NCBI RefSeq assembly: GCF_019029495.1
Contig: NZ_JAERQM010000004.1
Location: 186,294 to 250,293, forward strand
Direction of reading: 5' to 3'
Source: Falsiroseomonas oleicola
GTDB lineage: Bacteria > Pseudomonadota > Alphaproteobacteria > Acetobacterales > Acetobacteraceae
Length of the DNA stretch: 64,000 bases
This document shows positions 1 through 10,100 of the stretch, piece by piece (positions within the stretch are counted from its first letter, which is position 1; each line of letters starts with the position of its first letter). The notes under the pieces were generated by a model that worked only from the letters and a program-made list of their open reading frames with translations, did not search any database and was not told the DNA's origin. Position numbers and translations under genes: made by a program.

Positions 1-378
1 AAGGCCGCCGCGCCGAAGAAGGCCGCCGCTGCCAAGAAGCCGGCCGCGAAGAAGGCCGCCGCGCCGAAGAAGGCCGCCGCTGCCAAGAAGCCGGCCGTGA
101 AGAAGGCCGCCGCGCCGAAGAAGGCCGCTGCCGCCAAGAAGCCGGCGCCGAAGAAGGCTGCCGCGCCGAAGAAGGGCGCTGCCGCGAAGAAGGCGGTCGC
201 GCCGAAGAAGGCCGCTGCGCCGCGCAAGCCGTCACCGACCGCCGCCGCGAAGGCCGCCTCCTCGGCGCGCTCCGACGCCGCGCGCAAGGGCGCCGCGACC
301 CGCGCCGCGAAGAAGGCCGCCGCCGCGGCCGCTGCTGCCGCCGAGGCGCCCGCGCCGACGCCCGAGGCCGCCTCCTAA
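1..378 (+). CDS. Lys/Ala-rich histone H1-like protein (5' end outside window)
   Basis: The reading frame is open at the left edge, so the true start is not in the window; a GTG at 97 is in frame but lies inside the repeats. The 125 visible residues are almost entirely alanine, lysine and proline, built from loose repeats of the type APKKAAA and AAKKPA, ending in an Ala/Pro/Glu tail. No globular domain is visible. Such tails occur in bacterial histone H1-like proteins and in PhaF-type granule/nucleoid proteins, which bind DNA non-specifically through the lysines. DNA binding is inferred from composition only, and which family the missing N-terminus belongs to cannot be told. Confidence 0.75.
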   Translation, partial: KAAAPKKAAAAKKPAAKKAAAPKKAAAAKKPAVKKAAAPKKAAAAKKPAPKKAAAPKKGAAAKKAVAPKKAAAPRKPSPTAAAKAASSARSDAARKGAATRAAKKAAAAAAAAAEAPAPTPEAAS

Positions 379-393
379 GCCTCAGCCGGGACA

Positions 394-437
394 CTGGACC
401 CTGATGCGTTCACCTTCGTTCACGCATCAGGGTCCAG
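394..437. repeat. 16-bp perfect inverted repeat, 12-nt loop
   Basis: The arm CTGGACCCTGATGCGT (394-409) is exactly repeated in reverse complement at 422-437, around a 12-nt loop. It sits 15 nt after the stop codon of the lysine-rich protein. It could act as a transcription terminator, although no T-run follows, or be a dispersed palindromic element. Confidence 0.7.
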
Positions 438-498
438 CGCTGTTGGATCCCCGGGATTCAGACTTTTCGCTAATTTCACCTCAAGTCATCCCGCTCGA

Positions 499-540
499 GC
501 GAAAAGGCGTCGTCCGCTTGCGGGCGGCGCCCTTTTCGCG
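499..540 (+). terminator. Hairpin with CCCTTTT tail, possible terminator
   Basis: GCGAAAAGGCG at 499-509 can pair with CGCCCTTTTCGC near 528-539, with one extra G, and an inner CCGC/GCGG pair closes the stem. It lies upstream of the acetyltransferase gene, so it may end transcription coming from the left. The stem is imperfect and the T-run is inside it, so this is a weak call. Confidence 0.35.
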
Positions 541-556
541 TTCAAGGCCCATCGCC

Positions 557-1027
557 ATGACCTGCTACATCGCTCCCTTGCCGCGCGATCAGCGCCACCG
601 ACTGGCGCCGCTGCTGGCGCTCTACGCCGCCGAGATGCGCGACGTGCTCAACGGCGCCGCCAGCGCGACACCGGAGGCCCAGGCGGCGCTGCTGGCGCGG
701 CATCCGGCCGCGGAGGTGCTGCTGGCGGAGGATGCCGCCGGCACGCCGCTCGGCTTCGCCATCCTGTTCGACCTGCCGGAGGTGGTCTTCGCCCGGCATT
801 GCGGCATGCTCGACGACCTGTTCGTGCGGCCGGAGGCGCGCGGCCAGGGCGTCGCCCGCGCGCTGATCGCCGCCGCGGTGGCCATGGGCACGACCCGGGG
901 CTGGAGCCATCTGCGCTGGATCGTGCCGGAGGGCGATGTGGGCGCCATCGCGCTGTATGAGCGCATCGCCAGCCGCGCCGACTGGCGCAGCTATGTGGTG
1001 CGGATCGACCCCGCGGCTTCCTTGTAG
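557..1027 (+). CDS. GNAT family N-acetyltransferase
   Basis: A 156-residue protein of typical single-domain GNAT length. The acetyl-CoA-binding motif is visible in the middle: a beta strand DDLFVRPEARGQGVARAL containing the R-G-Q-G-V-A pyrophosphate loop, followed by an alpha helix and a C-terminal IALYERI segment, the usual position of the conserved tyrosine. The ATG at 557 is chosen because the residues before it in the same frame do not resemble protein and run through the upstream hairpin. The acceptor substrate cannot be deduced; the gene stands alone, convergent with the otnC-like gene one base away. Confidence 0.8.
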   Translation: MTCYIAPLPRDQRHRLAPLLALYAAEMRDVLNGAASATPEAQAALLARHPAAEVLLAEDAAGTPLGFAILFDLPEVVFARHCGMLDDLFVRPEARGQGVARALIAAAVAMGTTRGWSHLRWIVPEGDVGAIALYERIASRADWRSYVVRIDPAASL

Positions 1028-1028
1028 C

Positions 1029-1664
1029 TTAGCCGAAGGTCTTCAGCAGGTCGTCCACCTGCACCGCGTTCAGCGCCCGCACGCCGGGCACGCCGCGCAG
1101 CAGCAAGGCGAGGCGCGCCGCTTCCTCCAGCTCCTCCGCCGCATGCACCGCATCGGCCAGGCTGGCGCCGCTGACCACGGGGCCGTGATTGGCGAGCAGC
1201 AGGGCCTTTGCCAGAAGCGCCGCCTGATGCACCGCGGGCTCCATCGCGGAATCGCCCGGCCGGTAATAGGCGACGCAGGGCAGGCGGCGGCCGATGCGCA
1301 TGACGAAATAGGGCGTCAGCGGCGGGATCTCCGCATCACCACCCTCGGGCGCGAGGCAGGAGATGGCGGTGGCGTGGGTGGAATGCAGATGCACCACGGC
1401 GCCTGCCTCCGGCCGTGCCGTCAGCATTGCGCGATGCAGGAAGACTTCCTTGGAAGGCTTGTCGCCCGACAGATGCGCCCAGTCCGGCCCCAGCTTGCTG
1501 ATCCGCGCGGGGTCCAGCCGGCCGAGGCAGGAATTGGTCGGCGTCATCAGATAGCCATCCGCCAGCCGCACGCTGATATTGCCGGCGGTGCCGACGCTGT
1601 AGCCGCGATCGAACAGGCTTTTCGCGAGTTCGGCGAGTTGCGCGCGGGCGGCGTCCTCAGACAT
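1029..1664 (-). CDS. otnC: Class II aldolase, OtnC-like 3-oxo-tetronate 4-phosphate decarboxylase
   Basis: A 211-residue cytoplasmic class II aldolase/adducin-fold protein. The zinc site is visible as His92 and His94 in VVHLHSTHA and His160 in ANHGPVV; the catalytic acid is Glu73 in SKEV. Family members release CO2 from 3-oxo-tetronate 4-phosphate to give dihydroxyacetone phosphate. The immediately preceding gene is the matching kinase OtnK, overlapping by 8 bases, which supports OtnC over fuculose- or ribulose-phosphate aldolases. It is the last gene of a seven-gene run, so the true substrate may be an unusual four-carbon unit produced or consumed by that pathway. Confidence 0.8.
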   Translation of the reverse strand: MSEDAARAQLAELAKSLFDRGYSVGTAGNISVRLADGYLMTPTNSCLGRLDPARISKLGPDWAHLSGDKPSKEVFLHRAMLTARPEAGAVVHLHSTHATAISCLAPEGGDAEIPPLTPYFVMRIGRRLPCVAYYRPGDSAMEPAVHQAALLAKALLLANHGPVVSGASLADAVHAAEELEEAARLALLLRGVPGVRALNAVQVDDLLKTFG

Positions 1665-2916
1665 GCGCGAAGGCCTTCAGGAAGAAGTCGCGCGCGCCGA
1701 AATTGCCGGACTTCAGGGCGAGGTGGATGTTCGCCGGCTCTGCATAGGTCCAGGGCACGCCGGGGTCGATCTCCGCGCCGATGCGCAGCGTCGCCACGCC
1801 CAGCGCCGAGACTACGGCGCCGGAGGTCTCGCCGCCCGCCACCACCAGCCGCCCGACGCCGCGCGCCACCAGCCCCTGCGCCACGGCCGCCAGCGCATGT
1901 TCCACCAGCGCCCCCGCCGCGTCGCGACCGAGCTTCGCCTGCAGCGCCGCCACCTTCTCGGGCGGCGCGCTGGCGGCGATCACCACGGGATGGTCGGCGG
2001 AGAGCTTGCCCTCCACCCAGTCCAGCGCCTGCGCCGCCAGGGCCTTTGCGTCCGGCGTCGCCAGTACATCCAACTCCAGCGTCGGCGCATGATCCCGCGC
2101 AAAGCCGATCTGGCCGAGCGTGGCGCGGGAACAGCTTCCCGCGAGAACGGCGCACATGCCCTTGGCCGGCGGCAGTGCGGCGGCGTCCGGCCGTTCCGGC
2201 AGCAATCCCGCCGCCCGAAAATTCGCCGGCAGGCCCATGGCGATGCCGGACCCGCCCGTGATGAGCGGATGATGCGCCGCGGCCTCCCCGATGGCGACCA
2301 GATGCCCATCGGTCACGGCATCGACGATGGCGTAGCGCCGCCCGCCTTCCGCCATGCGGATCATCGCCTGGCGGATCGCCTGCGATCCCTGTTCCACCAC
2401 GGAGAAGGGCACTAGCCCCACCGCACCCTCCGTCTGCCGGCTGAGCACGCGGACCAGGTTCGCATCCTTCATCGGCGTCAGCGGATGGTTCTCCATGCCG
2501 CTCTCGTTCAGCAGATGCGCGCCAGCGAACAGATGCCCCTGATAGATGCTGCGGCCATTCGCGGGAAAGGCGGGGCAGGCCAATGCGAAGCCGGCGCCGA
2601 GCCGCTTCAGCAGCGCATCCGCGACAGGCCCGATATTGCCCGCATCGGTGCTGTCGAAGGTGGAGCAGTATTTGAAGAAGATCTGCTTCGCGCCCGCCGC
2701 CAGCAAGGCCTCCGCCGCCGCGAGGCTTTCGGCGATGGCCTCCCGGGCCGGCGTGGTGCGCGACTTCAGGGCGATGACGATGGCATCGGCCTCCGGCAAA
2801 GGTCCGGTTGGAACACCGATGACCTGCACCGTCGCCATGCCGTTCTTCACCAGCATGGAGGCGAGGTCGGTGGCGCCGGTGAAGTCATCGGCGATGCAGC
2901 CGAGCAGAAGGGGCAT
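1657..2916 (-). CDS. otnK: 3-oxo-tetronate kinase OtnK (four-carbon acid sugar kinase)
   Basis: A 419-residue protein of the four-carbon acid sugar kinase family (formerly DUF1537). The N-terminal substrate domain carries CIADDFTGATDLASML near residues 7-22. The C-terminal nucleotide-binding domain carries the glycine-rich VVAGGETSGAVVSALG near the end. It phosphorylates 3-oxo-tetronate on the 4-hydroxyl before OtnC decarboxylates it, feeding glycolysis. Usual companions, a dehydrogenase of the LtnD/DenD type and OtnI isomerase, are absent here. Instead the gene starts 6 nt after a methyltransferase gene, suggesting it works with the upstream pathway or was recruited to it. Confidence 0.88.
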   Translation of the reverse strand: MPLLLGCIADDFTGATDLASMLVKNGMATVQVIGVPTGPLPEADAIVIALKSRTTPAREAIAESLAAAEALLAAGAKQIFFKYCSTFDSTDAGNIGPVADALLKRLGAGFALACPAFPANGRSIYQGHLFAGAHLLNESGMENHPLTPMKDANLVRVLSRQTEGAVGLVPFSVVEQGSQAIRQAMIRMAEGGRRYAIVDAVTDGHLVAIGEAAAHHPLITGGSGIAMGLPANFRAAGLLPERPDAAALPPAKGMCAVLAGSCSRATLGQIGFARDHAPTLELDVLATPDAKALAAQALDWVEGKLSADHPVVIAASAPPEKVAALQAKLGRDAAGALVEHALAAVAQGLVARGVGRLVVAGGETSGAVVSALGVATLRIGAEIDPGVPWTYAEPANIHLALKSGNFGARDFFLKAFAHV

Positions 2917-2922
2917 TTTTGT

Positions 2923-3798
2923 TTACTCCTTGGGCGGCAGGCAGAGGACATCGCTGTGGCCGATGCGCACGGACAGCCGGTTCAGACCTGCCTCGGCGCG
3001 GCGGTCCACCGCCCAGTTCAGCAGCTTTGGCCGCGAACGGCGATCCTGCTGCATGGCGGCGCGGGCATGGCCGCTGGCGATGGCGGCGGCCATCTCCGGG
3101 TCCTGGCGCGGAATCCGCCAGTCGCTCGGCGCGCGATGCACGGCATAGCCCTGCGCCGCGAAGGCCGCGGCGATCACCGCCGGCGCGCGCGCGCCCAGCG
3201 CGATGCCGCCAAATCCCTTGTCGCGAAGCTGATCGCGCGCAAAACCGCGCGCCACCAGCGCATCGGTCGGATGCGGCGGGTCGAAGCGCTCCCGCCCCGT
3301 CACGTTCAGTGCGGCATAGAAGGGCAGGCGACGTTTGGCGCAGGCGGCGGCAATACGAAAAATCCAATCCTCGGAAACCAGGTCGCAGAGCGCGGTGTTC
3401 ACCACCGCATCCACCTGCGTCAGCGGCAGGCCCTTCGGCGCGTCCCGCAGATCGGCGACCAGCCCCTCCACCCGCCAGGCCCCGCCCGGCGCATGCACCA
3501 GCAGCGTCTTGCGGGAGGCATAGGTGGCGGGCCAGCCCATCGCCTCCCCGAAATCCGCGGTGGTGGTGAAGGCGCGGCTCAGCAGCCCGCCATCGGCGTC
3601 CACCAGGGTCCAGGCCTGGGCGCGGCCGATCGCCGGCGCCAGCCAGCGCAGCAGCGACCCGGTGCCGGCGCCGAGATCGAGAATGCGCGGCCGCGCCGGC
3701 AGCGCCTCCGCCAGACGTTGCGCGAGGTCCAGGTTGCGTGCGGCCGCATCATGCGGTTCGCGCAGTTCCAGCCAGTCGCCGTCAAAACTCTCCGCCAT
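2923..3798 (-). CDS. Class I SAM-dependent methyltransferase
   Basis: A 291-residue protein with the SAM-binding motif I ILDLGAGTGSLL at residues 39-50, followed by an acidic strand TLVDAD that would hold the ribose, and a later VDAVVNTALCDLV segment in the position of motif II/III. The acceptor is unknown. The ATG at 3798 lies next to the stop of the upstream glycosyltransferase (1 nt between them), and residues further upstream in the frame are a shadow of that gene. Its place between a glycosyltransferase and otnK suggests a tailoring methylation in the same pathway; that is inference. Confidence 0.82.
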   Translation of the reverse strand: MAESFDGDWLELREPHDAAARNLDLAQRLAEALPARPRILDLGAGTGSLLRWLAPAIGRAQAWTLVDADGGLLSRAFTTTADFGEAMGWPATYASRKTLLVHAPGGAWRVEGLVADLRDAPKGLPLTQVDAVVNTALCDLVSEDWIFRIAAACAKRRLPFYAALNVTGRERFDPPHPTDALVARGFARDQLRDKGFGGIALGARAPAVIAAAFAAQGYAVHRAPSDWRIPRQDPEMAAAIASGHARAAMQQDRRSRPKLLNWAVDRRAEAGLNRLSVRIGHSDVLCLPPKE

Positions 3799-3799
3799 C

Positions 3800-4840
3800 T
3801 CAGCCTGCCTTGTCGAGTTCAGCGAGGAAGGCGGTGGCGCGATCCTCCCAGCGCGGCAGCTTCTGGCCGGCGGCCCAGGCGGCCTCCGCCATCTCGGCGC
3901 GCAGATCGGTGTCGAAGATGGCGCGGCGCATCGCCTTGCCGAGGGAGACGACATTGCCGGGCGGCGAGATGACCCCCGCCGCCACCGGCACCACCTCCGC
4001 GATCGCGCCGCCGGCGGTGATGGCCACGGGCACGCCGCGCGCTAGGGCTTCCGCCGCCGCCATGCCATAGCCTTCCCAATGCGTCGCCAGCGCAAACAGG
4101 TCGGTGCCGGCCCAGAGTTTGTCGAGCGTCGGCTGGTCGACCTCCCCGGCGAAGGTCACGCGGCCGGCGAGGCCCAGCTCTTCCGCCAAGGCGAGCAGGC
4201 CATCCGCATGCACCTTGTCGCGCGGCGCACCTGCGATGGTCAGGGACCAGTCGAGATCGGAGAGTCCACCCAGCGCGCGCAGCAGCACGTCATGCCCCTT
4301 GCGCGGCACCAGCGTGCCGATGGCGAGGATGGCGCAGCCCGGCCCACCGGAACCCATGCTGCGCGGCGCCGGATCGGTGCCCGGCTCCACCACGCCGACC
4401 TTTGCGGCATCGACGCCGAATTCCGGCTCCAGCCGCCGCGCGGTCAGCGGGCTGGTGGCGACCAGGCGCGCGAGGTGGGGGAAGATCGCCTGTTCCGCCG
4501 CGCGCAGCGCGTCGCGCACCGGGCCGGGATTGCCGTGTTCCAGCGCCGTCGGGTGATGGATCAGGCCGACCGCGCCGCGCTGCTCCAGCACCTCCAGCAC
4601 CGGCTGGAAGGCGGGCAGGCCGAGGCCGTCGATGATGATCCGCGCCCCCTCCGGCACTTTTTGCAGCGCCGCCCGGGCGCTGGCCAAAGCGGTGGTGTCG
4701 GGCTGGGGGTGCGTGCCCTCCAACTCCAGCACCGTCACCGCATGGCCGAGCGCGCGCAGCCCGGCGACCAGGCGCCGGTCATAGCCATAGCCGCCCGAGA
4801 TGGCGTCGAAGGGCGCGGGGACGAGAAAGGCGATATCCAA
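3800..4840 (-). CDS. Glycosyltransferase family 4 (GT-B fold)
   Basis: A 346-residue cytoplasmic protein. The N-terminal Gly-rich segment (GGYGYDRRLVAGLRALGH) and the C-terminal donor-binding part, GTLVPRKGHDVLLRAL followed by WEGYGMAAAEALARGVPV with the Glu-x7-Glu spacing, are typical of retaining GT4 enzymes using nucleotide sugars. There is no membrane anchor. Unlike most GT4 genes it is not in a polysaccharide cluster: neighbours are a QueD-like protein 2 nt upstream and a methyltransferase 1 nt downstream. This favours glycosylation of a small molecule, as in pterin glycosides of other bacteria, but that is not proven. Confidence 0.85.
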   Translation of the reverse strand: MDIAFLVPAPFDAISGGYGYDRRLVAGLRALGHAVTVLELEGTHPQPDTTALASARAALQKVPEGARIIIDGLGLPAFQPVLEVLEQRGAVGLIHHPTALEHGNPGPVRDALRAAEQAIFPHLARLVATSPLTARRLEPEFGVDAAKVGVVEPGTDPAPRSMGSGGPGCAILAIGTLVPRKGHDVLLRALGGLSDLDWSLTIAGAPRDKVHADGLLALAEELGLAGRVTFAGEVDQPTLDKLWAGTDLFALATHWEGYGMAAAEALARGVPVAITAGGAIAEVVPVAAGVISPPGNVVSLGKAMRRAIFDTDLRAEMAEAAWAAGQKLPRWEDRATAFLAELDKAG

Positions 4841-4842
4841 GG

Positions 4843-5241
4843 TCAGACGGGCCCCTCGAAGGCGGCCCAGGCGATGTGGCTTTCGCGCAGCAGGATCTTG
4901 AGGCCCGTCACCGCCTTGCCGCCATCCCCCAGCACGCCGTCGCGGCAGGCCGCGGCCAGCAGGCCATGGATATGCAGGCAGAGATATTCGGTCGTGGTGT
5001 TCTTGCCGGCGAAGGCGTCCTCCGCATCCAGGTTGCGGTAGTCCATCGGCGCGAGAATGGCGCGCAGATGATCCTTCGCCAGGCCAATATCCACCAGCAG
5101 ATGCAGGTCATCGAGCTGCGGCGCGCGGAACTCGGCTTCGACGATGAAGGTCGCGCCGTGCAGCCGCTGCGCCGGGCCGAAGGCTTCGCCGCGGAAGGAA
5201 TGCGCGATCATGATGTGATCGACGACGGTCAGGCTGAACAT
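4843..5241 (-). CDS. QueD/6-pyruvoyl-tetrahydropterin synthase-like protein, active site altered
   Basis: A 132-residue protein of T-fold QueD/PTPS length. Recognisable anchors are AHSF (His14), RLHGATF (His28), LVDIG, the MDYRNL segment and LLRESHIAW (Glu120). Hand alignment to E. coli QueD, from memory, shows that the catalytic Cys is Ala24, the third zinc His is Ala30 and the catalytic His after Asp67 is Tyr68; two zinc histidines and the substrate-anchoring Glu remain. It is therefore unlikely to make 6-carboxytetrahydropterin by the usual route. There are no queC/queE/queF neighbours, so a queuosine role is not supported. It may bind a pterin-like ligand in the operon's own pathway. Confidence 0.75.
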   Translation of the reverse strand: MFSLTVVDHIMIAHSFRGEAFGPAQRLHGATFIVEAEFRAPQLDDLHLLVDIGLAKDHLRAILAPMDYRNLDAEDAFAGKNTTTEYLCLHIHGLLAAACRDGVLGDGGKAVTGLKILLRESHIAWAAFEGPV

Positions 5242-5248
5242 GAAGGGC

Positions 5249-6232
5249 TCATTCCTTGGAATAGGTCACGACGGGGCAGAGCGGCTGATGTGCCCCCGAT
5301 GGCGGCGACAGCAAGGCGTCCAGCGCCTGCGGCAGGTCGGCGAAGGCGGTGTCGGGCCCGAGCAGCGCGTCCAGCCGCGCATCCTCCAGCAGGGACAAAG
5401 CGAGCGCCAGCCTTTCGCCATGCGTGCGCCGGCCGCGCATGGCGGGGGCGACATGGCCGACCTGGGTGGAGATCAGCGACAGGCGCCTGGCGTGAAAGGC
5501 CTCGCCCAGCGGCAATTCCGCCAGGCGGTCGCCGAACCAGGAGGCCTCGACCACGCGCCCCTCGAAGCCGCAGCGCGACAGGGCTAGGCGCAGACCCTCG
5601 GCGCTGGCGGAGGCGTGGATCACCAGGTCGCGCTCGCCGGGCGCATCCTCCGGCGCGCAGAAGCTTGCGCCGAAATCCTCGGCGATGGCGCGCCGCGAGG
5701 CATCCGTGTCGCAGGCCCACAGGTCGAGGCCGGGGATGCGGCCGAGCAGATAGGTCACCAGCAACCCGACCACGCCGCAGCCCACCACCAGCACCCGCTC
5801 GCCAACCAGGGGCCGGGCGTCCCAGAGAATATTGACCGCCGTTTCCATATTCGCGCCGAGCACGGCGCGGCGGTCGGGCACGTCATCCGGGATGGGGATG
5901 CACATGGCAGCCGGCGCCACGAAGGCGTCGTGATGCGGATGCAGGCAGAAGATGCGCCGCCCATGCAGATGCGACGGCCCCGCCTTCACCGTGCCGACCG
6001 CGGCATAGCCATAGGAGAGCGGCGCGGGGAAGTCGCCATATTGCAGCGGCGCGCGCATCGCCGGCCATTGGCTCTCCGGCACCCGGCCGGAGAAGACCAG
6101 CCGTTCCGTCCCGCGCGAAATGCCGGAGGCCGAGGTGACCACCAGCGCCTGGTCGGGGCCGGGCACCTCCAGCTCCTGTTCGCGCAGCTCCGCCTGGAAG
6201 GGGGCGGTGATCCAGAGGGCCTTAGCCTTCAT
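5249..6232 (-). CDS. MDR-family dehydrogenase, BchC-like, lacking catalytic zinc ligand
   Basis: A 327-residue medium-chain dehydrogenase/reductase. The dinucleotide-binding motif is VLVVGCGVVGLL, followed by CDTD at the end of the second strand, suggesting NAD(H). Where zinc-dependent alcohol dehydrogenases have GICGSD, this protein has SGISRGTE, so the catalytic cysteine is a serine; the same SGIS-GTE pattern is what I recall for BchC, the bacteriochlorophyllide dehydrogenase. No bch genes are present. The next gene starts 7 nt downstream, and the upstream gene overlaps by 4 nt. A role as side-chain ketone/alcohol oxidoreductase in the pathway is inferred. Confidence 0.78.
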   Translation of the reverse strand: MKAKALWITAPFQAELREQELEVPGPDQALVVTSASGISRGTERLVFSGRVPESQWPAMRAPLQYGDFPAPLSYGYAAVGTVKAGPSHLHGRRIFCLHPHHDAFVAPAAMCIPIPDDVPDRRAVLGANMETAVNILWDARPLVGERVLVVGCGVVGLLVTYLLGRIPGLDLWACDTDASRRAIAEDFGASFCAPEDAPGERDLVIHASASAEGLRLALSRCGFEGRVVEASWFGDRLAELPLGEAFHARRLSLISTQVGHVAPAMRGRRTHGERLALALSLLEDARLDALLGPDTAFADLPQALDALLSPPSGAHQPLCPVVTYSKE

Positions 6233-7032
6233 GGTGCGGTCGTCTCCTCGCAGATGCCCAGTTCCTCGCAGATTCCGGGCTGGGCGCGGTGCAGCGCGAT
6301 GTCGAACAGCATGTCCTCCCCGATTGCATGCGGCGTCCAGCGGAAGCGCAGCCCATCGGCGATGCGGCCGGCGCTGGGCAGGGTGAAGGCGGGAATGCCG
6401 GAGCCGAGGATGATCGGCGCCACCGTCAGATGCAGCCGGTCGAGGCAGCCGGCGGCGAGAAAGGCGGAGACGGTCCGCCCGCCCCCCTCCACGAATATCC
6501 TTCTCAGATTCCGCGCCGCGAGTTCGCGGAGCAGGGCGGGGAGGTCGGGGCCGTCTGGCTGGTACAGCACCTCGGCCAGGCCGTGGGTGGCGGGACCCTC
6601 GGCGCTGGTCACCAACAGGGTCGGCGCCGCGCCATCCGAAAACACCTTATGCGTGGCGGGCAGGCGGCGGCGGGGGTCCAGCACCACGCGGACCGGGTTG
6701 GGGCCGGAGACCTCCCGCGTCGTCAGGCGCGGATCGTCATGATGCACGGTGCCGCCGCCCACCATCACCACGTCGCACAGCGCGCGCAGCCGATGCGTGT
6801 GCAGGATGTCGCCGCGCCCGCCGATCCATTGCGAGGCGCCATTGGCGCAGGCGATGCGGCCATCCAGCGTCTGCGCCAGCCGGCCGATCACGACGCAGCC
6901 ATCCGGCGCTTCGGGCGCGGCGAGCAGCGGCGTGAACAGGTCGCCGAAGGCGCCGCGTGGCACGGCTGCGCCCTGCCGCGCGGCCAGCAGCGCGGTCCAG
7001 TCTTCCGTCTCGGAGGTGATGGCGTGGTTCAT
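6229..7032 (-). CDS. RibD C-terminal-type reductase (dihydrofolate reductase fold)
   Basis: A 267-residue protein that matches the reductase half of RibD: LAQTLDGRIA, SQWIGGRGD, LRALCDVVMVGGGTVHHDDPRL, PVRVVLDP and IFVEGGGRT are in the expected order. The zinc deaminase half of RibD is absent, so it is not a complete riboflavin enzyme. RibD_C proteins reduce a ribosylamino-pyrimidine with NADPH; related reductases act on other pterin- or pyrimidine-like compounds. It is the first gene of a run of seven closely spaced genes, with an ATGA overlap to the dehydrogenase that follows. Confidence 0.82.
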   Translation of the reverse strand: MNHAITSETEDWTALLAARQGAAVPRGAFGDLFTPLLAAPEAPDGCVVIGRLAQTLDGRIACANGASQWIGGRGDILHTHRLRALCDVVMVGGGTVHHDDPRLTTREVSGPNPVRVVLDPRRRLPATHKVFSDGAAPTLLVTSAEGPATHGLAEVLYQPDGPDLPALLRELAARNLRRIFVEGGGRTVSAFLAAGCLDRLHLTVAPIILGSGIPAFTLPSAGRIADGLRFRWTPHAIGEDMLFDIALHRAQPGICEELGICEETTAP

Positions 7033-7086
7033 GCGTGGGGAATGCTATGCCGAAGCGGCGGGATTGCGGCAACGGCGCAGGCCGCT

Positions 7087-7599
7087 TCAGCGCAGCGCCA
7101 CGCCTGGAAACAGCGGAAGCAGCAACTCGGCCGCCAGCCCCGCCAGCAGGGGCAGGGAAAAGCTCGCCAGCAGCCGCACGACGATAAAGCGCCCGCCGAG
7201 GATCGGAAGTTCCCAGGCCAGCGTCCGGTGCAGGCCGAGAATCGCCCAGCCGGAAATCAGCGCCACCATCTGCGAAGGCCCGGCCCCCGCCTTCAGAAAG
7301 CCCAGCACCAGCGGGAAGGCGACGAAGGGTCCGCCCGGCATGGCGCCGCCGGCTACGGAGGCCAGCAGAATGCCGATGAAGCCGCTATCCGGACCGAGCC
7401 AGCGTTCCGCCCAGCCGGCCGGAATCAGCTCCGCCAGGAAGGCCGCCATGGGCAGCGCCATCAGCATCACCGGCAGCACCCGCCAGAGCGCGGTGCCCGC
7501 ATCGGCCACCGCCCGCCGGCCCACCGCCGGGCTGCGCCGCAGGCACAGCCCCAGCGCGCCGAGTGCCACCACCCAGATGGCGATCACGCCGAAGCTCAT
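7087..7599 (-). CDS. Small inner-membrane permease-like protein, second of a paralogous pair
   Basis: A 170-residue, very hydrophobic protein with about five predicted membrane segments. Its core, SVAGGAMPGGPFVAFPLVL followed by LAWELPILG, is clearly paralogous to the gene before it. The start ATG at 7599 overlaps the stop of that gene (ATGA). The arrangement looks like the two halves of a YraQ/DUF318-type permease encoded separately; such permeases normally have two internal repeats. The substrate is unknown. Only 54 nt separate its end from the reductase-led operon, so cotranscription is possible. Confidence 0.7.
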   Translation of the reverse strand: MSFGVIAIWVVALGALGLCLRRSPAVGRRAVADAGTALWRVLPVMLMALPMAAFLAELIPAGWAERWLGPDSGFIGILLASVAGGAMPGGPFVAFPLVLGFLKAGAGPSQMVALISGWAILGLHRTLAWELPILGGRFIVVRLLASFSLPLLAGLAAELLLPLFPGVALR

Positions 7600-8138
7600 C
7601 GGCGGTCCTGCATGCCGGGCGCATCGGCCGGGTCCCAGCGGATCGGCAGCCAGCGCGCGAAAAGCCCCGCCAGCACCGGCAGCGGCAGGCCGCAGATCAG
7701 GCGGAGCAGGGCGAAATCGGCGCCGAGGATCGGCAGTTCCCAGACCACGATCCGCTGGAAGCCGTTCAGCGACCAGGCGAGCACGAAGGCGATCAGCGCG
7801 CCGCGATCCGCCCCGGCCTGGGCCAGCACCAGCACCACGGGGAATGCCGCGACCGGCCCGCCTGGCATTGCCATGCCGGCCGCCGTCGCCACCAGCAGCC
7901 CTCGGATTCCGCTCTCCGCCCCCATCCACCGCGCCAGCGCCCCGGGCGGCACCAGCTGGCGCAGCGCGGCGGAAAGCAGCAGGCCGCCGATGATGGAGGG
8001 CAGCACCGTCAGGATCAGGTCCCAGGTCGCATCCAGCGCATGCCACACGGCGCCCATGCCGCGCAGCAGCGCGACCGCGATGGCGGAGCAGAGGGTCAGC
8101 GCGGAGATGACCAGGAATGTTGCGTTGCGGCGGAGCAT
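7596..8138 (-). CDS. Small inner-membrane permease-like protein, first of a paralogous pair
   Basis: A 180-residue multi-pass membrane protein with an N-terminal segment LVISALTLCSAIAVALL and later hydrophobic stretches. The signature AAGMAMPGGPVAAFPVV and VWELPILG are shared with the following gene, so the two are paralogous and probably assemble as a heterodimer. The relationship to DUF318/YraQ permeases is judged from the repeated glycine/proline motif and is not certain. The gene lies 78 nt after the flgN-like gene on the same strand but has no evident flagellar role. Confidence 0.7.
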   Translation of the reverse strand: MLRRNATFLVISALTLCSAIAVALLRGMGAVWHALDATWDLILTVLPSIIGGLLLSAALRQLVPPGALARWMGAESGIRGLLVATAAGMAMPGGPVAAFPVVLVLAQAGADRGALIAFVLAWSLNGFQRIVVWELPILGADFALLRLICGLPLPVLAGLFARWLPIRWDPADAPGMQDRR

Positions 8139-8216
8139 GCGATGCGCGGCAAGCTGCGCCCGCGCGCAGCTTCCGGCAAGCGCCCCCGCGTGACGTTCTG
8201 TCCCGCGGAAAGGCGG

Positions 8217-8612
8217 TCAGGCGCGGGAGGAAATCGACAGCGGCTGGTGCCGCCCGTCCCGCTGCCGGCCACGCTCGCCATAGGTGCCGGGGCCGGCCGG
8301 GCGGGTGGCGCCGGCGATGGTCTCGATCACGCGGGATTGCAGCGCGATGGCGCGTTCCAGCAGCCGGCGATTCTCCGCGCCCAGGTCGCGCAGCCGCCCG
8401 GCCAGCTCCTCCGCCTTGGCGCGATCGGGGCCCACGGCCTTGGAATTCGTGCGGTTCGCAGCGTCGAAGGCCGCGGCGAAAGCGTCGGAGGCCTGCTGCT
8501 TCGGCAGGGCCAGCGCGGCGGCGCTGTTCAGGTCCAGCCGGGCCAGCGCCTCGTTCTCGGCGCGCAGCGCCTCGCTCAGGCGTTGGGCGGCAACGATCAG
8601 CGGCTGCATCAT
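8217..8612 (-). CDS. FlgN-like flagellar chaperone (putative)
   Basis: A 131-residue mostly helical protein, starting MMQPLIVAAQRLSEAL, with heptad-like spacing of Leu and Ala over residues 5-105 and a polar tail. Size, helical content and position directly after flgJ-like and flgI genes match FlgN-type export chaperones for hook-junction proteins. The start at 8612 overlaps the end of the preceding gene by 4 nt. Sequence identity to FlgN cannot be judged by eye, so the name rests mainly on context. Confidence 0.6.
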   Translation of the reverse strand: MMQPLIVAAQRLSEALRAENEALARLDLNSAAALALPKQQASDAFAAAFDAANRTNSKAVGPDRAKAEELAGRLRDLGAENRRLLERAIALQSRVIETIAGATRPAGPGTYGERGRQRDGRHQPLSISSRA

Positions 8613-8954: not shown

Positions 8955-10100
8955 TCAGCGCACCTCCAGCTCGGCCTGCAGGGCACCTGCCGCCTTGATG
9001 GTCTGGAGGATGGTGATCATGTCGCGCGGCCCGACGCCCAGGCCGTTCAGCCCGCGCACCAGATCCTCCAGCGTCACGCTGCCGGGCAGGATGCCGAGCC
9101 GGCGCCCGGACTGGTCATCCACCTCGATCCCGGTGCGCGGCACCACCGCCGTCTGCCCGCCGGCCAGCGCATTGGGCTGCACCACCTGCGGCGTTTCCGT
9201 GATGCGGATGGTCAGGTTGCCCTGGGCGATGGCGACCGTGGACAGCCGCACATTGGCGCCCATGACGATGGTGCCGGAGGCTTCCTCGATCACCACCCGG
9301 GCCATCTGGTCCGGCTGCACCCGAAGCTGCTCGATCTGGGCGATGAAGGCGATGGAATCGCGCCCGGTCAGGGAAACGTTGACGGTGCGTGGGTCGGTCG
9401 CCGTGGCGGCCTGGCTGCCGGCGCTGGCATTGATGGCGGCGGCGATGCGGCGCGCCGTGGTCAGGTCCGGATTGCGCAGTGCCAGGCGCAGCCGGTCGCC
9501 GCCCGCGAAGGTATAGGCCACCTCCCGCTCCACCGTCGCGCCATTGGCGATGCGGCCGGCAGTCGGCACGCCCCGGGTGACGGAGCCGGCGGCGCCACGG
9601 GCGGAAACCGCGCCGGTGACGATCGGCCCCTGCGCCACCGCATAGACCTCCCCATCCGCGCCGAGCAGCGGGGTGACCAGCAGCATGCCGCCGGTGAGGT
9701 TGGTGGCATCGCCGAGCGCGGAGACCGCGATATCGATGCGCGATCCGGTACGGGCGAAGGCCGGCAGGTTGGCGGTGACCATCACCGCCGCGACGTTGCG
9801 GGTATCGAGCTGGCGTTCCTGGTCGCGGGTATTGACGCCCAGGCGTTCCAGCACGCCGATCAGCGACTGCCGGGTGAAGACCGCGCTGCGCAGCTTGTCG
9901 CCGGTGCCGTTCAGGCCGACCACCAGGCCGTAGCCGACCAGCTGGTTCTCCCGCATCCCCTCGATATCGGCGATGTCCTTGATCCGCACCTGGCCCTGCG
10001 CGCCGGCCGGCGCCAGGGCCGGCAGCAAGGCGAGGCACAGCAGCAGGACCGTCAGGAGACGCCGCGGGATGCTCATGCTCGGGCAAGGAATTTTCGGCAC
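8955..10100 (-). CDS. flgI: Flagellar P-ring protein FlgI
   Basis: The protein forms the periplasmic P ring around the flagellar rod. The mature part starts QVRIKDIADIEGMRENQLVGYGLV, the family hallmark, with VGLNGTGDKL close behind, and ends LKAAGALQAELEVR-like; total length about 381 is normal. An N-terminal signal peptide (RRLLTVLLLCLALLPALAPAGA) is clear. I choose the GTG at 10100 because an AGGAGG sits about 6 nt upstream; an ATG at 10076 in the same frame would also leave a signal peptide. The first gene of flgI-flgJ-flgN, downstream of a sigma-54-type promoter at 10154-10168. Confidence 0.93.
   Translation of the reverse strand: MPKIPCPSMSIPRRLLTVLLLCLALLPALAPAGAQGQVRIKDIADIEGMRENQLVGYGLVVGLNGTGDKLRSAVFTRQSLIGVLERLGVNTRDQERQLDTRNVAAVMVTANLPAFARTGSRIDIAVSALGDATNLTGGMLLVTPLLGADGEVYAVAQGPIVTGAVSARGAAGSVTRGVPTAGRIANGATVEREVAYTFAGGDRLRLALRNPDLTTARRIAAAINASAGSQAATATDPRTVNVSLTGRDSIAFIAQIEQLRVQPDQMARVVIEEASGTIVMGANVRLSTVAIAQGNLTIRITETPQVVQPNALAGGQTAVVPRTGIEVDDQSGRRLGILPGSVTLEDLVRGLNGLGVGPRDMITILQTIKAAGALQAELEVR

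Follow-up and report, generated by a model that had tools for sequence, protein, structure and literature searches.

Gene organization of the locus

We analysed a 64,000-nucleotide stretch of Falsiroseomonas oleicola DNA (the window), in which seven open reading frames lie on the minus strand between 1029 and 7032, preceded by a pair of putative permease genes. All seven were confirmed. The features are:

7596..8138, minus strand: half-size ArsP_1-like permease A, preceding the operon, role putative (PF03773, 31.4 bits, cut-off 32.3)
7087..7599, minus strand: half-size ArsP_1-like permease B, preceding the operon, role putative (PF03773, 31.3 bits, cut-off 32.3)
6229..7032, minus strand: RibD_C-type pyrimidine reductase, 267 aa, without a deaminase domain (Pfam, solved relatives, linkage)
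5249..6232, minus strand: BchC-like medium-chain dehydrogenase (ADH), 327 aa (weak BchC model match, conserved residues)
4843..5241, minus strand: PTPS-like T-fold protein, 132 aa, SCO6650 orthologue (profile match to 3d7j_A)
3800..4840, minus strand: GT4 glycosyltransferase, 346 aa, TTG start (Pfam Glycos_transf_1)
2923..3798, minus strand: class I SAM-dependent methyltransferase (MT), 291 aa (weak Pfam match, LDLGAGTGS stretch)
1657..2916, minus strand: OtnK, 3-oxo-tetronate kinase, 419 aa, adjacent module (NF043035, distribution, tree)
1029..1664, minus strand: OtnC, 3-oxo-tetronate 4-phosphate decarboxylase, 211 aa, adjacent module (NF043034)

The coordinates agree with the sequence-only reading of seven minus-strand genes spaced by -8 to +7 nt: the RibD_C and ADH genes overlap by 4 nt, gaps of 7, 2, 1, and 6 nt follow (ADH/PTPS, PTPS/GT4, GT4/MT, and MT/OtnK, respectively), and OtnK and OtnC overlap by 8 nt. 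The MT start was set at 3798 for this spacing; the ORF list has an earlier one. Positions 800-8300 were scanned with a simple method that carries little weight in GC-rich DNA: no sigma-70-like promoter turned up, and the single terminator-like site (999-1015, plus strand) is outside the block. Against near relatives (L032 and L034), dN/dS is 0.09-0.34 across all seven genes, lowest in the PTPS-like gene, and therefore all seven are maintained. As described below, the seven genes split into two units, a five-gene core and the OtnK/OtnC pair.

The PTPS-like protein

The PTPS-like protein matches 3d7j_A (SCO6650) over its full length (209 bits, E 2.4e-61, positions 1-131), and by this match it is an orthologue of Streptomyces SCO6650 (PDB 3D7J). 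We aligned 116 PTPS-like sequences (the window's own is counted twice); none of them has the HGH motif, the catalytic Cys, or the catalytic His. Position 30 is Ala in 116/116, position 24 is Ala in 115 and Ser in one, position 25 is Gln or Arg, position 22 is Gly, and position 68 is Tyr in 109, Phe in six, and Leu in one. E120 is kept in 115 sequences, the remaining one having a gap there; we take this Glu to be the pterin anchor of PTPS. SCO6650 itself presumably lacks the third zinc-ligand His and the catalytic Cys/His and keeps the anchor Glu, and the same residue pattern is present in the window's protein.

Section 7 of PMC5041015 gives CxxxHGH, CxxxxxHGH, and ExxHGH as the motifs of PTPS-I, PTPS-II, and PTPS-III, respectively; the function of a further group, PTPS-V, is described as unclear in that paper. 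These families (QueD, PTPS, and folate PTPS-III; COG0720) resemble our protein in fold family and length, but it lacks HGH and the catalytic Cys and His positions, and the pathways named for them in that section differ from this cluster. Neither CxxxxxHGH (PTPS-II) nor ExxHGH (PTPS-III) is present, and given the absent motifs and missed cut-offs we reject a QueD/queuosine or biopterin identity. The earlier label "QueD-like" thus holds for the fold but not for the enzyme, as the QueD model scores 36 bits where 89 are required. It is also possible that the PTPS-like protein is no enzyme at all.

The other proteins

The RibD_C protein passes the Pfam RibD_C cut-off (149 bits versus 24) and narrowly misses TIGR00227 (142 versus 150 bits). 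Its best-matching solved relatives are the 2,5-diamino-6-ribosylamino-4(3H)-pyrimidinone 5'-phosphate reductases 6p8c and 2azn, which likewise have no fused deaminase; these diaminopyrimidine reductases reach 99 and 72 bits, versus 51 bits for Rv2671. It differs from them in not being part of the riboflavin operon; that operon is on a different contig of this genome and has its own RibD.

The dehydrogenase has no Pfam match at E 0.001. Its similarity to BchC (3-hydroxyethyl bacteriochlorophyllide dehydrogenase) is weak, extends over residues 2-237, and falls far under the TIGR01202 cut-off (51.8 bits versus 291), so that of the name "BchC-like" only the fold resemblance survives. Zinc MDRs carry Cys and GHE at two motif positions, where this protein has SGxSRGTE and YGY; S39, G41, E43, Y76, H100, E130, W137, and D138 are identical in 114/114 aligned sequences.

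Pfam finds Glycos_transf_1 in the GT4 protein, which by profile is closest to Tll1590 (135 bits), followed by D-inositol-3-phosphate-glycosyltransferase-type chains (101-119 bits); we reject a tetrahydrobiopterin glucosyltransferase (42-46 bits versus 101-135 for the best GT4 matches). The methyltransferase matches Methyltransf_23/25 below cut-off and has only marginal solved relatives (20-24 bits); its LDLGAGTGS stretch is conserved in the alignment. OtnK and OtnC exceed their curated cut-offs (NF043035, 608 bits versus 350; NF043034, 272 versus 250), with Pfam domains SBD_N+NBD_C and Aldolase_II, respectively.

Conservation of the core and its companion genes

A neighbourhood search found the block of the first five genes (RibD_C, ADH, PTPS, GT4, and MT) to be deeply syntenic across phyla. 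Copies of this core occur in Alpha- and Gammaproteobacteria, in Actinomycetota, and in two MAGs assigned by their titles to Acidobacteria. In the main synteny table (115 rows, some loci being cut by contig ends), ADH-PTPS-GT4-MT are ordered on one strand in 33/34 actinobacterial, 31/42 Acetobacteraceae-like, and 31/36 other alphaproteobacterial rows, in both acidobacterial loci and the single gammaproteobacterial one, and the window itself has this order. RibD_C is linked in 39/42 Acetobacteraceae-like loci and 27/36 other alphaproteobacterial rows. In a separate phylum sample, the PTPS-like gene was found in 19 of 299 genomes; 14 loci fetched from it (further Pseudomonadota) contain ADH and GT4 in all 14, MT in 12, and RibD_C in 13. 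The core gene trees correlate with one another (r 0.65-0.92, without an unrelated-gene control). The permease pair, earlier proposed to export the product, does lie upstream as two half-size ArsP_1-like proteins, but it is near the core in only 15/42 Acetobacteraceae-like loci and one other alphaproteobacterial locus, so the exporter role is weak.

In other lineages, the core is often accompanied by GTP cyclohydrolase II (GCH-II), a creatininase-family hydrolase, a CDP-alcohol phosphatidyltransferase, and an LPG-synthase-type membrane protein, and some of the lineages with the latter two also have a sulfatase-family membrane protein. These companions suggest that a diaminopyrimidine or pterin is made from GTP and then undergoes oxidation, glycosylation, and methylation. 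GCH-II is linked in 32/34 actinobacterial loci, in 45/115 rows of the main table, and in 5/14 of the further Pseudomonadota loci. The switch position of the actinobacterial enzyme is Met in 26/32 sequences; it is Met or His in 29, all with a creatininase-family gene beside them, and Tyr in three, none with such a gene. Streptomyces SCO6655 presumably makes FAPy through the Met in place of Tyr. The 12 linked GCH-II genes in alphaproteobacteria may be a riboflavin enzyme that happens to be nearby. The genome studied here has two GCH-II matches, the motif being present only in the one on contig C28, and its creatininase match that best fits the cluster type (168 bits) is on contig C1. A CDP-alcohol phosphatidyltransferase orthologue was also sought in this genome; four family members were found, the best at only 35 bits, and none was assigned.

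Proposed pathway

Because gene order in the core is so deeply conserved, the best interpretation is that its members jointly build a heterocycle from GTP and add sugar and methyl groups to it, and the sequence-only idea of such a heterocycle gains support. With moderate confidence, we regard the five genes as the Acetobacteraceae form of a widespread orphan SCO6650-type biosynthetic cluster whose product is probably a small molecule resembling a pterin or pyrimidine and carrying a sugar and a methyl group. We infer the substrate, the order of steps, the ring closure, and the product as follows. GTP would be opened to a diaminopyrimidine ribotide by GCH-II, encoded elsewhere in the genome; where the cyclohydrolase forms FAPy, the creatininase-family enzyme would take off the formyl group. 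The RibD_C protein would reduce the ribosyl chain to a ribityl chain, and the BchC-like dehydrogenase would oxidise a side-chain hydroxyl. Lacking the usual zinc site, the PTPS-like T-fold protein would bind the 2-amino-4-oxo ring and steer ring closure, or a rearrangement, towards a pterin-like product, which GT4 would glycosylate and the methyltransferase would methylate. The OtnK/OtnC pair would be a neighbouring tetronate-catabolism module.

Several observations count against this explanation. RibD_C is linked in only 4/34 actinobacterial loci; an unlinked partner is possible there, as 5 to 32 RibD_C-family matches were found per genome in the 11 actinobacterial genomes tested. Outside Actinomycetota, GCH-II has Tyr at the switch position in 10/10 readable sequences (three more were unreadable), and three loci (L160, L161, and L072) have a creatininase gene despite a Tyr enzyme. 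Neither GCH-II nor creatininase is linked in any of the 42 Acetobacteraceae-like loci or present in the window's operon; by profile, pterin glucosyltransferases are more distant from the GT4 protein than other GT4 types are; and eight Acetobacteraceae-like loci lack the methyltransferase, GT4 being followed directly by OtnK.

Alternative explanations

The sequence-only reading placed OtnK/OtnC in the same pathway, supplying or recycling a C4 unit. Such a seven-gene pathway, in which the pair supplies DHAP or another C3/C4 unit that the PTPS-like protein condenses with the diaminopyrimidine, is in our view unlikely. It would account for the same-strand adjacency of OtnK and the core in 47/66 core-positive Acetobacteraceae genomes, for OtnK being present in 63/66 core-positive versus 29/84 core-negative genomes (uncorrected for phylogeny), and for its position 17-102 nt after GT4 in the eight loci without the methyltransferase. 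However, this linkage was seen only in Acetobacteraceae-like loci: the remaining loci (36 alphaproteobacterial rows, 34 actinobacterial, two acidobacterial, one gammaproteobacterial, and 14 further Pseudomonadota) have neither gene close to the core. Even within the family, OtnK is more than 500 nt from the core in 10/35 loci, and the core-negative genomes G298, G422, and G428 (99-100% complete) keep an OtnK of the same clade. With 29/84 core-negative genomes of the family also retaining OtnK, the joint C4-acid pathway is unsupported. OtnK/OtnC look like an ordinary sugar-acid breakdown pair adjoining the core in this family; they differ from known tetronate catabolism in having no adjoining OtnI, but an OtnI homologue over its cut-off lies on another contig, in a glyoxylate-type gene neighbourhood (judged by eye), and tetronate could conceivably be degraded with no contribution from the core.

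The nucleus could instead be a normal pterin from GTP cyclohydrolase I (FolE), with RibD_C as a DHFR-like reductase and the set decorating tetrahydroneopterin or a relative, a reading to which we give a low but real probability. Rv2671, a RibD_C-fold protein among the solved matches, is one that we take to act as a DHFR, and in L146 a FolE gene in divergent orientation, itself a divergent third copy in its genome, lies about 17 nt from the dehydrogenase in a locus where RibD_C was not detected. This is the only FolE near the core in 129 loci, set against the GCH-II counts above, and Rv2671 is a more distant match to the RibD_C protein than the diaminopyrimidine reductases are. It is highly improbable that a true QueD/PTPS step operates here in a queuosine/7-deazaguanine or biopterin/folate pathway: membership of the Pfam PTPS family speaks for it, and the QueD score and the absence of all three PTPS motifs of PMC5041015 from the 116 aligned sequences speak against it.

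A cluster-specific OtnK paralogue was considered separately. The best-separating clade of the OtnK tree (support 0.51; at least two genomes, L059/L210 and L070/L206, were entered twice) includes 39/40 core-adjacent copies but also 16/33 non-adjacent or core-negative ones, so there is no cluster-specific OtnK lineage.

Relation to the SCO6650 cluster of Streptomyces

The Streptomyces cluster is already known, as an uncharacterised one, and SCO6655 is listed as GTP cyclohydrolase II in PMC2853524. We found no description of a pathway or product in the open-access literature, as judged from titles and abstract openings. The S. coelicolor SCO6650-SCO6655 region shares with the window the orthologous PTPS-like protein and, in Streptomyces loci, the ADH-PTPS-GT4-MT order; the window differs in having no linked GCH-II, creatininase, CDP-alcohol phosphatidyltransferase, or LPG-synthase-type membrane gene, and in having RibD_C linked and OtnK/OtnC after the core.

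The five-gene core would tie a solved protein of no assigned function (3D7J) and genes likely to be annotated as QueD, BchC, and RibD into one pathway. If the product is a new glycosylated pterin-like compound, it would be a widespread, overlooked metabolite built from riboflavin-type intermediates. More tentatively, and with clearly lower confidence than in the cluster assignment, we suggest a new class of glycosylated pterin- or pyrimidine-type cofactor, pigment, or signal across Pseudomonadota, Actinomycetota, and Acidobacteria, made through GCH-II, RibD_C, the dehydrogenase, and a T-fold protein lacking the zinc site instead of GTP cyclohydrolase I. In lineages with the CDP-alcohol phosphatidyltransferase and LPG-synthase-type protein, it might be lipid-attached and flipped to the membrane's outer face; Acetobacteraceae would make the soluble core form. 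By position, as read from the gene numbering, SCO6652 would be the methyltransferase of the Streptomyces cluster. PMC3610822 gives SCO6652 log2 values of +0.8, +4.3, and +4.1 at 24, 48, and 72 h, respectively (second versus first mycelium), and this rise in the second mycelium indicates a growth stage at which the compound could be sought.

Conservation of the operon and its core

The operon consists of seven minus-strand genes with spacings of -8 to +7 nt, as the sequence-only reading had claimed and the ORF coordinates confirm. All seven are under purifying selection (dN/dS 0.09-0.34 against two near relatives), with the strongest constraint on the PTPS-like gene. Family scans confirmed RibD_C, the PTPS fold, GT4, OtnK and OtnC, and weakly recognised the methyltransferase (MT); the dehydrogenase (ADH) has no match in Pfam, and its proposed likeness to BchC is present but lies below threshold. 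The PTPS-like gene has a single match in the 5.6 Mb genome, and its closest named relatives among the matches listed belong to Falsiroseomonas and Roseomonas (95-96% identity), on which basis Acetobacteraceae is taken as the window's family.

Synteny counts across loci indicate that the first five operon genes are a conserved unit in Pseudomonadota. The dehydrogenase query matched 36 of 289 alphaproteobacterial genomes, the window's own among them. A search of GTDB genomes with the PTPS alignment gave at least 584 confirmed relatives; the best 80 were taken forward and include, by title, Acetobacteraceae, Streptomyces, Micromonospora, Amycolatopsis, two Acidobacteria MAGs and the gammaproteobacterium Larsenimonas. 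In the table joining these 80 loci to 35 fetched alphaproteobacterial loci, in which several loci are truncated at contig ends, the order ADH-PTPS-GT4-MT on one strand is found in 33/34 actinobacterial, 2/2 acidobacterial and 1/1 gammaproteobacterial loci, and in 31 of the 42 Acetobacteraceae-like loci (a provisional group within the best 80, formed by similarity and record title, in which several loci are named just Rhodospirillales, Proteobacteria or Asaia MAGs). The neighbourhood search also bore out the supposed synteny of the RibD_C/BchC-like/PTPS/GT4/MT block across alphaproteobacteria: the same order occurs in 31 of 36 other alphaproteobacterial rows (L073 and L135 share coordinates and are seemingly one genome entered twice), and PTPS and GT4 matches adjoin the dehydrogenase in 28 of 30 retained loci. 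A later Pseudomonadota sample contained the PTPS-like gene in 19 of 299 genomes, 14 of which were newly analysed (four others were already included, and G721 was left out); all 14 loci have ADH and GT4 (in two of them GT4 precedes ADH on the upstream side), 12 have MT and 13 have RibD_C, the single locus missing RibD_C being at a contig end. The core gene trees correlate (r 0.65-0.92, in a comparison without an unrelated-gene control).

The PTPS-like protein

The third gene had been called QueD-like, an identity that we abandon: the profile matches SCO6650 of Streptomyces coelicolor (PDB 3D7J, "uncharacterized") over its full length with 209 bits, and gives at most 33 bits with the other seven PTPS/QueD chains listed. 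Membership of PTPS-I, -II or -III was likewise rejected, since the defining motifs given in PMC5041015 are all missing. In the 116-sequence alignment (115 locus copies and the window's own, which thereby enters twice), every sequence has His14 and His28, and Glu120 is retained in 115, with a gap in the remaining one. HGA replaces the HGH motif in all 116, the catalytic-Cys position holds Ala in 115 and Ser in one, and Tyr, Phe or Leu occupies the catalytic-His position. At L143, one of the 116 loci, no match to PTPS was obtained. The 3D7J structure paper reportedly describes SCO6650 as lacking the zinc and the triad, with a pocket that could accommodate a pterin; this view agrees with the residue losses counted here.

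OtnK and OtnC

The last two operon genes are:

1029-1664, minus strand: OtnC, 3-oxo-tetronate 4-phosphate decarboxylase
1657-2916, minus strand: OtnK, 3-oxo-tetronate kinase

We surveyed 150 genomes of the window's family, counting OtnK as linked when on the same contig within less than 12 kb. The core dehydrogenase is present in 66 and OtnK in 92 (both 63, core only 3, OtnK only 29, neither 55), a strong association when descent is ignored. OtnK adjoins the core in 47 of the 66 core-positive genomes, on the same strand every time; of the other 19, three lack OtnK, a single genome carries it at a distance of 57 kb, and in 15 it lies on other contigs, where contig breaks may conceal linkage. 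On the question of whether otnK/otnC travel with the block, such linkage occurs within the family, and none was seen outside it in the synteny table or the 14 further Pseudomonadota loci. Among 35 Acetobacteraceae-like loci, the core-to-OtnK distance is at most 102 nt in 25 and above 500 nt in 10 (MT-OtnK gap in L038, L040, L041, L042, L045, L046, L047, L052, L054 and L064).

In a tree of 73 OtnK sequences, core-adjacent copies intermingle with copies from core-negative genomes, and an OtnI homologue above the cut-off lies on contig C2 of the window's genome, among neighbours that by eye look like a glyoxylate pathway. Our reading is that OtnK/OtnC are long-standing neighbours of the core that probably just share the operon in the window's family, because no linkage was seen outside the family, the tree is mixed and OtnI lies elsewhere. 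A part for them in a joint pathway, as first proposed, is not borne out, given that linkage to the core was seen only within the family and 29 genomes have OtnK only.

One further OtnK-like gene follows the core at another locus, with no OtnC found:

L055, 12269-13507, plus strand: highly divergent OtnK-like protein that shares 44% identity with the OtnK of the window

GTP cyclohydrolases and the wider cluster

In actinobacterial loci the core is accompanied by GTP cyclohydrolase II (GCH-II; 32/34), a creatininase-family gene (29/34), a CDP-alcohol phosphatidyltransferase (33/34) and an LPG-synthase-type membrane protein (34/34). RibD_C is linked in only 4/34, and the 11 actinobacterial genomes tested have 5 to 32 RibD_C-family matches each. 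The corresponding counts in the 14 further Pseudomonadota loci are GCH-II 5, creatininase 1, phosphatidyltransferase 7 and LPG-synthase-type protein 7. The lipid-related genes suggest a membrane-bound product form in Actinomycetota and the gammaproteobacterial loci; a search of the window's genome yielded no phosphatidyltransferase orthologue.

At the GCH-II position that we take to decide whether the normal product or FAPy is made, 26 of the 32 actinobacterial sequences carry Met, three carry His and three carry Tyr. A creatininase gene is present at 29/29 Met/His loci and 0/3 Tyr loci, which are not independent because most of the genomes are Streptomyces. This pattern fits a putative FAPy-forming cyclohydrolase followed by a deformylase. 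Outside Actinomycetota all 10 readable sequences have Tyr (those of L152, L153 and L155 are unreadable and outside the ten; L153 has a creatininase). Seven of the ten loci lack a linked creatininase; the three that have one (L160, L161, L072) do not fit this reading.

Three cyclohydrolase genes were noted:

Window's genome, contig C27 (locus L120), 7207-8331, minus strand: RibB with a GCH-II domain lacking the usual motif
Window's genome, contig C28 (locus L119), 5728-7041, plus strand: intact GCH-II, Tyr type
G231, contig C121 (locus L146), 9350-10075, plus strand: FolE (GTP cyclohydrolase I, GCH-I)

The C27 gene, with its degenerate domain, lies with RibD in the riboflavin operon, and the intact GCH-II stands alone on C28; it would have to be shared between the riboflavin and core pathways. 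A search with FolE from the window's genome located GCH-I at 1 of 129 core loci (L146). The gene there is on the opposite strand, some 17 nt away from the dehydrogenase of the core, and RibD_C was not detected in that locus. This FolE is a third, divergent copy in its genome (183 bits vs 254 and 253); five comparison genomes have one each. This one example suggests that the same core can be supplied with a pterin derived from GTP, and possibly FolE replaces the RibD_C branch there.

Proposed pathway

GCH-II would convert GTP to a diaminopyrimidine ribotide, with a deformylase wherever FAPy forms, and RibD_C, whose top solved relatives are 6P8C and 2AZN, would yield the ribityl form. The BchC-like enzyme may then oxidise a side-chain hydroxyl; it has Ser39 and Tyr76 in 114/114 aligned sequences, at what are presumably the zinc-ligand sites of other medium-chain dehydrogenases. 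The T-fold protein could be the site of ring closure or rearrangement, and glycosylation and methylation would be the final steps. By chemical reasoning, C2' oxidation and attack by the 5-amino group could give a dihydroneopterin-type ring.

The Streptomyces cluster was noted earlier, as uncharacterised, so this kind of cluster is already known. No description of a pathway or product was found in the open-access papers searched. The window contributes a compact five-gene variant and puts RibD_C into the core.

Two plus-strand ORFs lie between the window edge and otnC, the second convergent with otnC so that their stop codons nearly abut:

97-378, plus strand, at the window edge: Lys/Ala/Pro-rich repeat protein, histone H1-like in appearance
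404-1027, plus strand: GNAT acetyltransferase-like ORF (by eye)
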